Under the pieces are notes generated by a model, which was given only the letters and a program-made list of their open reading frames with translations, was not told where the DNA came from and searched no databases. DNA of 64,000 nt from Flavipsychrobacter sp. (lineage in GTDB: Bacteria > Bacteroidota > Bacteroidia > Chitinophagales > Chitinophagaceae), in the NCBI GenBank assembly GCA_016786615.1, contig JAEUVX010000009.1, forward strand, positions 310,001-374,000, written 5' to 3'. Both the position numbers and the translations under genes were made by a program. Within the stretch, counting starts at the first letter, position 1; each line of letters opens with the position of its first letter. Below, in pieces: positions 10,301 through 10,837 of this stretch.

Positions 10301-10360
10301 CAAAAGCCGCCCGAAGGCGACTTAAAGCTGTGGAGAATAACGGAGTCGAACCGATGACCT
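10301..10360 (-). repeat. Direct repeat copy A: tRNA-Ala 3' half plus terminator
   Basis: A 60-base segment nearly identical to 10639-10699: one single-base indel in an A run and one A/G difference. It holds the T-arm and 3' acceptor strand of tRNA-Ala and the hairpin terminator. Lying downstream of the GIY-YIG gene, it brackets that gene together with copy B. Confidence 0.9.
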
Positions 10361-10383
10361 TCCCAATACTTCGGGACGCTCTA
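10331..10383 (-). pseudogene. tRNA-Ala remnant (3' part) with palindromic anticodon arm
   Basis: Read on the minus strand, it begins with the 3' side of the D-stem (TAGAGCG) and then has a 16-base hairpin in place of the anticodon arm. It ends with the variable region, T-arm, 3' acceptor strand and discriminator A of tRNA-Ala. The 5' acceptor and D-arm strands are missing, so it cannot fold as tRNA. The GIY-YIG stop codon TAG is the first three bases of this remnant. Confidence 0.85.
10361..10376. repeat. 16-base palindrome, copy 1 (in tRNA remnant)
   Basis: TCCCAATACTTCGGGA: a 6-bp stem with a 4-base loop. It differs from copy 2 by A for G in the stem, which still pairs as G-U in minus-strand RNA. 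It occupies exactly the place of the 17-base anticodon arm of the intact tRNA-Ala. Confidence 0.85.
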
Positions 10384-10632
10384 TCGCTCGTTATTGATAA
10401 CCAGTTCAATAAACTTTCTGCTTTTCATTTTTTTGATGAAAGCCTCGCGTTGCATGGCTTCACTTCTTGTATTATACGATTCGATTTTTCTCAATTCCCA
10501 TGGGCAGCCTGCTTTTGTGGATTTGTTTCTGCCATTGTTGTGCTGTGCCAGTCGTGTAGTCATATCCTCGCAACTGCCAACATAATATTTGTTGGCAGCA
10601 TTGCTGAATAGTATATAAACATGAAAAGGCAT
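10381..10632 (-). CDS. GIY-YIG nuclease-superfamily protein (single domain)
   Basis: An 83-residue one-domain nuclease. Motifs in order: HVYIL (the GIY strand, 4-8), YYVG (the YIG strand, 16-19), R27, H31-N32, and E63 in QREAFIKK, the metal-binding glutamate. All key residues are present, so it should be active. The start is taken as ATG 10632, six bases after the direct repeat; an in-frame TTG at 10641 lies inside the repeat. The stop codon falls in tRNA-derived DNA. The family includes homing endonucleases and UvrC/Slx1 relatives. It lies just behind the tRNA-Ala terminator, between duplicated tRNA pieces, suggesting it moves or converts with tRNA sequence. Confidence 0.9.
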   Translation of the reverse strand: MPFHVYILFSNAANKYYVGSCEDMTTRLAQHNNGRNKSTKAGCPWELRKIESYNTRSEAMQREAFIKKMKSRKFIELVINNER

Positions 10633-10638
10633 AAAAAA

Positions 10639-10661
10639 CAAAAAGCCGCCCGAAAGCGACT
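10639..10661 (-). terminator. Terminator of tRNA-Ala
   Basis: On the minus strand a 6-bp stem (GTCGCT against GGCGGC, with G-U pairs) closes a TTCG tetraloop and is followed by TTTTTG. The same hairpin is in repeat copy A at 10301-10322. Read-through from the tRNA promoter would express the GIY-YIG gene. Confidence 0.75.
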
Positions 10662-10699
10662 TAAAGCTGTGGAGAATAACGGAGTCGAACCGATGACCT
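10639..10699 (-). repeat. Direct repeat copy B: 3' half of intact tRNA-Ala plus terminator
   Basis: A 61-base partner of copy A. It covers the T-arm, 3' acceptor strand and terminator of the functional-looking tRNA-Ala and ends a few bases before the GIY-YIG start codon. The match to copy A stops exactly where the anticodon arm begins. Confidence 0.9.
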
Positions 10700-10743
10700 C
10701 TTGCATGCCATGCAAGCGCTCTAGCCAGCTGAGCTAATTCCCC
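10670..10743 (-). tRNA. tRNA-Ala (anticodon GGC)
   Basis: A 74-base cloverleaf without encoded CCA. The acceptor GGGGAAT/ATTCTCC includes the G3-U70 pair that identifies alanine tRNA. D-stem GCTC/GAGC, anticodon stem CTTGC/GCAAG around loop ATGGCAT with anticodon GGC, and T-loop TTCGACT are all present. The T-stem ATCGG/CCGTT contains a U50-U64 mismatch, which is unusual. It is followed by a terminator and the GIY-YIG gene. Confidence 0.92.
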
Positions 10744-10782
10744 ATATAGTATTTGTTAAGAACTGTTTTAAAAAATCAAATC

Positions 10783-10837
10783 AACCGATGACCTTCCCGA
10801 TGCTTCGGGACGCTCTAGCCAGCTGAGCTAATTCCCC
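10783..10837 (-). pseudogene. tRNA-Ala remnant (5' part) with palindromic anticodon arm
   Basis: Read on the minus strand, it is identical to the tRNA-Ala 5' acceptor strand, D-arm and base 26. A 16-base palindrome replaces the anticodon arm, then the variable region and 5' T-stem strand follow before homology ends inside the T-loop. There is no 3' acceptor. It lies 39 bases upstream of the intact tRNA gene and complements the 3' remnant on the other side of the GIY-YIG gene. Confidence 0.85.
10795..10810. repeat. 16-base palindrome, copy 2 (in tRNA remnant)
   Basis: TCCCGATGCTTCGGGA: a perfect 6-bp stem with loop TGCT. It replaces the tRNA-Ala anticodon arm exactly between conserved flanks (GAGCG on one side, AGGTC on the other in tRNA sense). 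Confidence 0.88.

Follow-up and report, generated by a model that had tools for sequence, protein, structure and literature searches.

A GIY-YIG nuclease gene between intact and hairpin-scarred copies of tRNA-Ala in Flavipsychrobacter: a candidate minimal selfish element at the tRNA genes of Bacteroidota and neighbouring phyla

Introduction

Group I introns with GIY-YIG nuclease genes occur in the anticodon loops of transfer RNA (tRNA) genes, and integrative elements rebuild the tRNA at their attachment site and leave a tRNA fragment at the other end. SegB belongs to the homing lineage of GIY-YIG enzymes, and the RAYT transposases are of the HUH type. The nearest described system known to us is phage SegB (T4/T6), a free-standing GIY-YIG homing endonuclease whose cuts fall in tRNA genes and cause the tRNA and its own gene to be amplified in tandem (PMC13096335). 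Another account groups homing enzymes with UvrC and away from SLX1, and portrays UPF0213/SLX1-like proteins as predicted repair nucleases of mainly vertical inheritance, the passages in question describing no tie to tRNA genes beyond one fusion of an SLX1-like domain to a tRNA methyltransferase domain (PMC1564403). RAYTs are tyrosine transposases that go with REP palindromes (PMC2817692, PMC3116915). A search of the open-access PMC literature found, among the papers listed, none on tRNA-nested GIY-YIG genes of bacterial chromosomes. Here we analyse a stretch of 64,000 nucleotides (nt) from Flavipsychrobacter sp. (assembly GCA_016786615.1, contig JAEUVX010000009.1, positions 310,001 to 374,000; hereafter the window), in which a small GIY-YIG gene lies among whole and scarred copies of a tRNA-Ala gene. 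Comparison with other genomes leads us to regard this unit as probably an instance of a minimal selfish element, composed of a nuclease and a hairpin, that is widespread at tRNA genes of Bacteroidota and neighbouring phyla.

The unit in the window and its empty sites

Coordinates are those of the whole window, and the unit is read on the minus strand from 10837 to 10301. In this direction a scarred 5' part of tRNA-Ala is followed by an intact tRNA-Ala(GGC), a terminator, the GIY-YIG gene, a scarred 3' part of tRNA-Ala and a further terminator:

10848..10856, minus strand: promoter-like box TATATTTGC of the Bacteroidota -7 type before the tRNA, kept in empty congeners
10783..10837, minus strand: scarred tRNA-Ala 5' copy, comprising tRNA positions 1-26, a hairpin and AGGTCATCGGTT, and ending in the T arm
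10795..10810, unstranded: hairpin TCCCGAAGCATCGGGA replacing the anticodon arm of the 5' copy
10744..10782, minus strand: T-rich spacer of 39 nt from the scarred 5' copy to the intact tRNA, for which no source was found and the empty congener sites hold no counterpart
10669..10743, minus strand: intact tRNA-Ala(GGC), identical to the gene of the empty congeners
10634..10662, minus strand: terminator-like hairpin and T-run 3' of the intact tRNA, with the nuclease ATG directly after it
10381..10632, minus strand: GIY-YIG nuclease gene, 83 amino acids from the ATG or 86 from a TTG at 10641
10330..10383, minus strand: scarred tRNA-Ala 3' copy, comprising TAGAGCG, a hairpin and tRNA positions 44 to the end
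10361..10376, unstranded: second hairpin TCCCGAAGTATTGGGA, replacing the anticodon arm of the 3' copy
10295..10322, minus strand: terminator-like hairpin after the 3' copy, with the native downstream flank next

Much of this layout had been noticed in a first-pass annotation made from the letters alone. The complete 83-residue GIY-YIG gene that it placed behind an intact tRNA-Ala is confirmed by the open reading frame (ORF), by the tRNA call and by a PF01541 match (E 1.1e-15) over the ORF at 10641-10381 of the minus strand. The repeat it described does bracket the nuclease gene, at another length than the 60-61 base pairs (bp) it gave: direct repeat D1, which holds the 3' part of the tRNA and the terminator, spans 66 nt at 95% identity (10295-10360 / 10634-10699). 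The 5' and 3' remnants are also as it had them, and the stop codon of the nuclease, TAG (10383-10381), does fall within tRNA-derived DNA, in the motif TAGAGCG. Two other direct repeats complete the picture, D3 (27 nt, 100%; 10717-10743 / 10811-10837) in the 5' part of the tRNA and D2 (35 nt, 94%; 10349-10383 / 10783-10817) in both remnants, the latter made up of TAGAGCG, a 16-nt palindrome and AGGTCATCGGTT. By way of the 35 nt of D2 that they share, the remnants join, as had been suggested, into one altered tRNA-Ala in which a hairpin takes the place of the anticodon arm (positions 27-43). The annotation had recorded this as no more than an altered tRNA or 'palindromic form'; such arm replacement is recurrent and matched to the nuclease. 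A group I intron was considered and rejected, Rfam at gathering thresholds finding two tRNAs alone in the window and no group I ribozyme.

Fifteen genomes of the genus, the window's own included, were searched, and three of them (G197, G200, G198) hold an empty site: a single plain tRNA-Ala that has the window's promoter box but lacks a nuclease, flanked as in the window by a PhnA-like gene and, at the other end, by the start of an SDR gene. The native flanks can be aligned at either end, and the window holds about 434 bp extra, which is the spacing of D2 (434). Because three congeners carry one plain tRNA-Ala at the same site, the alignment indicates that a segment of about 434 bp with tRNA and nuclease was gained at the tRNA-Ala gene, in keeping with the insertion that the annotation had supposed. 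A full tRNA-Ala(GGC) is present once per genome in all 15, a second match in G201 (85%) being a tRNA-Ala(TGC) beside tRNA-Ile, and the gene at 10743-10669 is the sole full copy found in its own assembly, which is 91% complete. Its letters are identical to those of the copies in 11 of the 14 other genomes (97% in the remaining three). tRNA-Ala remnants occur in two of the 15 genomes. Beside the same neighbour, the PhnA-like gene, G202 has a unit of its own, whose nuclease differs (41% identity with that of the window) and whose 3' copy holds CCCCGAAAGCTTTCGGGG as a hairpin in the anticodon loop; a 5' scarred copy is lacking. That unit (L193 2496-2900) looks independent; relative to the PhnA-like gene its tRNA lies on the other strand, so that the segment is inverted with respect to the window.

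Recurrence beside tRNA genes

The same arrangement recurs throughout Chitinophagaceae, the family of the host, where the nuclease is found at E<=1e-10 in 81 of 195 genomes, often several times and in tandem. From the family protein search 127 loci were taken, namely the 30 best and most others among the matches listed, and they contain 164 domain hits. Of these, 106 have an intact tRNA no more than 200 bp away and 141 have one no more than 1300 bp away; for every one of these 141 the nearest intact tRNA is on the strand of the nuclease. Counted by locus, the figures are 102/127 within 200 bp and 107/127 within 1300 bp. An earlier count, in which repeated and hairpin-selected loci were included, gave 116/170 within 200 bp, all on the same strand, with the tRNA upstream in 88 and downstream in 28. 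As a control, 30 uvrC loci of the same family, whose products also have a GIY-YIG domain, gave no tRNA within 200 bp (0/30) and any tRNA in the flanks once (1/30). Given the tRNA within 200 bp at 102 of 127 loci and the empty site in three congeners, the arrangement is not a matter of chance. The annotation had proposed a search of other Bacteroidota genomes, and homologues elsewhere do show a strong association with tRNA fragments and direct repeats; a layout unique to one locus, without tRNA association elsewhere, is contradicted by the same 102 loci. At least two nuclease domains share a strand in 26 of 132 loci (two of which repeat others), with 27 of 38 spacings between 309 and 394 bp.

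Beyond the family, a phylum-wide draw of 395 genomes, some of them from the family, with scoring limited to 14 candidates in each, yielded profile matches at E<=1e-15 in 165; across 26 new loci, a same-strand tRNA lies within 200 bp of 25 of 38 hits. Among named genomes, represented by the best 80 of 249 relatives, such a tRNA is on the same strand at 61 loci and on the opposite strand at two, with none so near at 17. The named hosts are nearly all Bacteroidota (Chitinophagaceae, Algoriphagus, Flavobacterium, Paludibacter and others). Outside this phylum a tRNA is present at L294 and L304 (Ignavibacteriota), L319 (Chlorobiota) and L314 (Fidelibacterota), and no full tRNA at L320 (Ignavibacteriota), L297 (Calditrichota) and L315, from a metagenome-assembled genome labelled Woesearchaeota, which may reflect transfer to an archaeon or a binning error. 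The isotypes used include Ala GGC, Lys TTT, Arg TCT/CCG/CCT/ACG, Val TAC and Asp GTC, and further Pro TGG/GGG, Leu TAA/CAA, Ser GGA, Asn GTT and Met.

Two details of individual loci may be recorded here. At L260 (1-700) and L265 (1250-1900) the upstream tRNA-Lys faces away from the nuclease, and the scarred tRNA-Lys 3' copy downstream has the orientation of the nuclease; at L315 (~1340-1920) the nuclease is accompanied by repeated tRNA-like fragments bearing GTCCCGA..TCGGGA hairpins.

The nuclease protein

Catalysis by GIY-YIG enzymes relies on Tyr, Tyr/Gly, Arg and Glu residues, and in all 20 aligned members Y9, S13, Y20, G22, R30, H34, E66 and K70 are invariant. An AlphaFold2 model of the window protein has a predicted GIY-YIG fold (mean pLDDT 88). 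In a profile search of the PDB, 1zg2 (1.4e-14) and 1ywl (2.4e-11) score ahead of SLX1 (1.7e-8) and of I-TevI (0.0064), Foldseek ranks 1-9 are all UPF0213/SLX1 with E below 0.001 at rank 1 alone, and the NCBIfam model for group I intron endonucleases scores 25.6 bits against a cut-off of 56.05. Judged by its sequence and predicted fold, the window protein is a stand-alone domain of the SLX1/UPF0213 lineage, further from I-TevI; the annotation was right in calling it a GIY-YIG nuclease, and the tRNA-targeted homing or gene-conversion element that it inferred stays hypothetical.

The ratio of non-synonymous to synonymous substitution (dN/dS) has a median of 0.105 over the 83 of 231 pairs with synonymous differences (pS) below 0.7, computed from 22 copies whose matched stretch is free of stops, a set that includes tandem copies and the open piece of a broken copy. 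Because of this low ratio the gene is taken to be kept by purifying selection where it is present, and its presence is patchy: the tRNA-Ala-type nuclease is found at E<=1e-20 in 21 of 150 Flavobacterium genomes (the genus of G444, with a 100% match to the named L305), and among the Flavobacterium copies listed three of 24 have stops, one of them five.

Scarred tRNA copies and their hairpins

Scars were sought at the 145 hits with a same-strand intact tRNA within 1300 bp by aligning that tRNA with the DNA flanking the nuclease on its far side. A second tRNA copy with an alignment score of at least 40 was present at 114, and in 101 of these it bears a hairpin with a net stem of at least 6. Once repeated places are removed 98 of these GC-rich hairpins remain, 35 of which lie exactly between tRNA positions 26 and 44 (+/-1), so that the anticodon arm is replaced; others lie in the T arm, in further parts of the anticodon region or, at position 16 or 21, in the D loop. 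The rest of the tRNA can be complete, as at L119 (75/75 tRNA letters and an insertion of 20 nt) and L133 (72/73 and 29 nt). In Flavobacterium, L282 and L300 have a hairpin in both the anticodon arm and the T arm, and at L317 the scar is decaying. Hairpins of the TCCCGA class have 4-7 bases between their six-base arms, and of 62 distinct sequences 54 form a Watson-Crick pair at the inner seventh position (shuffled mean 26, maximum 39). A scar pattern following AGAGC matches in 43 of the 195 family genomes (reversed control none), and the nuclease is present in 33 of these 43 as against 48 of the 152 without scarred tRNAs (Fisher 1.6e-7). The palindrome CCTGCCTGCCGGCAGGCAGG or a variant of it sits in the D loop of scarred tRNA-Arg at L119, L030, L108, L115 and L186.

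Scars and hairpins also occur away from the gene. Nuclease-free scar arrays, with units of 72-139 bp and usually beside an intact tRNA, reach eight units at L195 and seven at L097 and L196, and of 20 stretches (1.2-4 kb) picked for scar hairpins 17 hold no nuclease within the stretch. In a census of 16 hand-chosen genomes, TCCCGA hairpins number 4-34 in nine genomes, other than the window's own, that have units or scars (reversed control 0-2) and 1-2 in six that have neither (control 0-1). The eight tandem 86-bp units of L195 (1100-1790) are scarred tRNA-Thr 3' halves, between a tRNA cluster Thr-Tyr-Gly-Thr and what, judged by eye, is the start of an EF-Tu-like gene; hairpins lie near the same Thr-Tyr-Gly-Thr cluster at L206, L211, L212 and L213.

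Match of nuclease lineage to isotype and hairpin

A tree of 142 nuclease sequences over 76 columns, in which 67 of 139 inner branches are open, requires 51 changes of isotype against 109.5 with shuffled labels (unlabelled rows taken as one group). In 79 of 123 cases a nuclease and its nearest relative from another genus are at one isotype (shuffled mean 8.6, maximum 20), and in none of the 123 does the nearest relative at a different isotype belong to the same genus; on these two counts the nuclease lineages track the tRNA isotype, not the host, as far as sequence comparison tells. Across isotypes, sequence comparison further has the lineages tracking the class of hairpin: the nearest nuclease of another isotype has the same class in 57 of 76 cases (shuffled 21.9, maximum 39), with classes set by our own text rules and 16 of 92 hairpins, being unclassed, excluded. 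That hairpin class merely mirrors the host genome was tried as a reading and rejected, 16 of 29 within-genome pairs being of the same class and 13 of different classes; the same-class pairs are tandem copies or belong to the common YCCCGA class, so that some host effect may contribute.

Proposed mechanism and its standing

From these comparisons we infer a cycle in which the nuclease would cut at a tRNA arm (anticodon, D or T) that can be extruded as a hairpin or cruciform, and the break would be repaired by homologous recombination through the tRNA halves, copying the nuclease gene in. One full tRNA would be kept or rebuilt beside the nuclease, and the host would live though the gene is single and presumably essential, while the other copy would keep a GC-rich hairpin in place of an arm. 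Repeated cutting with unequal repair could then produce tandem arrays of nuclease and scar, and of scars alone. Nucleases of the SLX1 type act on branched DNA, according to PMC1564403, as the titles of two structures among the Foldseek matches (6seh, 7cq4) also indicate; since tRNA arms and hairpins can form such structures, a structure-directed cut is favoured, by analogy, over the sequence-directed cut of classical homing. A self-cut might be avoided through an enzyme directed to the hairpin, through low expression behind the terminator, or through a need for native flanks. A bolder extension, which we put forward as a tentative possibility, is that the SLX1-type GIY-YIG protein is the mobility enzyme of the hairpin itself, recognising hairpins or cruciforms, tRNA arms among them, and moving its gene and cognate hairpin between arms.

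Should this hold, it would amount to hairpin-directed mobility with tRNA genes as landing pads and scarred tRNAs as non-autonomous offspring, unlike the sequence-directed homing endonucleases and unlike RAYTs with their HUH enzymes. The selfish element would be a new kind of mobile DNA at single-copy tRNA genes, its host spared by tRNA rebuilding. A large class of small Bacteroidota GIY-YIG genes would thereby acquire a function, the adjoining tRNA fragments and undetermined tRNA calls an explanation, and prokaryotic SLX1-like nucleases a testable substrate. The sets of nuclease, hairpin and arm are natural experiments on structure recognition.

Several observations weigh against the element as we conceive it. 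The evidence is all comparative sequence. The intact tRNA of the occupied locus equals the empty allele letter for letter, so that a homing site destroyed by insertion is not evident; this identity is unfavourable to an enzyme that cuts the empty allele while sparing the occupied one, and makes self-cutting the main difficulty. No intact tRNA lies within 1300 bp at 20 of the 127 family loci, ten of them stretches under 2 kb ended by a contig end; some tRNA-less loci (L002, L004) hold tRNA fragments and no full tRNA. The strand rule has exceptions, the nearest tRNA (tRNA-Lys) being on the opposite strand at L260 and L265. A good second tRNA copy is missing at 31 of 145 hits, 63 of the 98 hairpins miss the border at 26, that at 44 or both (eight have one fitting border), and in ten of the 43 scar-bearing genomes the nuclease is missing at E<=1e-10. 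As for the lineage match, the open branches of the tree count here, as do our own text rules for hairpin class and the excluded hairpins; the label shuffles ignore relatedness and near-copies raise the contrast, and agreement in the arm used is weak (58 of 76; shuffled 45.0, maximum 58). Many Flavobacterium species hold the unit at tRNA-Ala, which long vertical retention would fit as well. In the window's own genome TCCCGA hairpins number two, as does the reversed control. Finally, CCTGCC palindromes occur in 36 of 191 genomes at up to 32 copies (control none), and a tRNA was found in none of the eight such stretches examined; some hairpins could therefore be general genome repeats.

Comparison with described systems

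Like SegB, the present units have a free-standing GIY-YIG gene beside tRNA genes of many isotypes and show tandem amplification of a tRNA and nuclease segment. SegB is phage-borne, whereas the units are chromosomal and SLX1-like, I-TevI, with which the comparison was made, being more distant than SLX1. Arm-replacing hairpins are not mentioned in the part of the SegB account at hand (PMC13096335), in contrast to the units, which have a scarred tRNA on the opposite side and a clade-matched hairpin. Alleles free of the gene at the same site, as homing supposes, are those of the three congeners.

With REP/RAYT systems the units share a small DNA-acting enzyme matched to a hairpin class and extra, gene-free copies of the hairpin in the genome; a cognate hairpin is indicated by the 57/76 agreement in class and by hairpins without a nearby gene, the TCCCGA hairpins of the window's genome excepted. 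Here, unlike there, the enzyme is GIY-YIG and the hairpins lie in tRNA arms, and the domain matches are all of GIY-YIG type, with none to REP/RAYT or IS200/IS605 transposases. The likeness to UPF0213 and prokaryotic SLX1-like proteins extends to size, fold and closest solved structures (1zg2, 1ywl, SLX1). tRNA group I introns too bring a GIY-YIG gene to the anticodon arm, but no ribozyme was found in the window, and rather than being spliced, the tRNA persists whole next to the insertion. Integrative elements likewise restore a functional tRNA and leave a fragment at the other end; in the window, by contrast, there is no integrase, and the recognised gene in a whole gain of about 434 bp is the GIY-YIG gene, not a site-specific recombinase.

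Alternative explanations

The most serious alternative, which we consider unlikely, is a domesticated enzyme that maintains or amplifies the copy number of tRNA genes in the manner of SegB in T6, the scarred copies being waste. Tandem nuclease domains (26/132 loci), purifying selection, the unit at tRNA-Ala in many Flavobacterium, and the amplification precedent (PMC13096335) would all suit it; yet the arrays examined multiply scars and nuclease rather than intact tRNA, even if several tRNA-Lys copies stand at L015, L205 and L210, and such a host role sits poorly with a nuclease lacking at E<=1e-10 from 114 of 195 family genomes, present in 21 of 150 Flavobacterium genomes, and with tRNA-Ala remnants in two of 15 genomes of the genus. 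Slightly less probable again is a system acting at the level of RNA, in which the scarred tRNA, with the stop codon inside it, would be a tRNA-like RNA with a swapped arm, serving to bind the nuclease or its mRNA or to regulate either. The swap at exact arm borders in 35 of 98 hairpins, the covariation of the stem, the overlap of the ORF end with the scarred copy at many loci viewed and the ARAGORN calls of some scarred copies as tRNA are what such an RNA would show; against this, many scars are 5' or 3' halves unable to form a full cloverleaf, Flavobacterium scars can fall into decay or acquire another hairpin with the nuclease still in place, and hairpin arrays stand in stretches without a nuclease (17/20).

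tRNA genes are the usual attachment sites of phages, and scarred copies might conceivably act as decoys for integrating phages or for tRNA-cutting effectors. We regard such an anti-phage role as very improbable: PADLOC matches among 20 members (PDC-S14 in 6/20, a homing-endonuclease model in 3/20 with a best of 4.3e-6, UzuA in 2/20) are weak, the best match of the window protein (E 1.8e-4) covers residues 8-39, the region of the GIY-YIG motif, and the intact tRNA target persists in occupied loci. A defence gene was rejected on the weakness of the PADLOC matches throughout, and so was phage or plasmid cargo, the relative at L005 being without a match in plasmids or phages at E 1e-5; viral contigs gave two weak relatives among 277 candidate stretches. 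The least credible reading is that a simple tandem duplication of the tRNA trapped an unrelated small gene and then decayed. Although the locus does hold direct repeats and copies, the nuclease stands beside many tRNA isotypes at more than 100 loci, hairpin class tracks nuclease clade and the uvrC control is negative, and recurrence across loci and isotypes rules this reading out for practical purposes.

Other palindromes

Palindromes of the CCTGCCTGCCGGCAGGCAGG type (CCTGCC) also reach 32 copies in some genomes of the family. The window's own genome has five dispersed palindromes CCCCGAAGTATCGGGA, one of them a variant, at position 1501 of L032, L033, L035, L036 and L037, with no tRNA in the 45 bases on either side. 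The copies share a similar context, with CAATGACG or a near variant of it, and form a REP-like repeat family of that genome.

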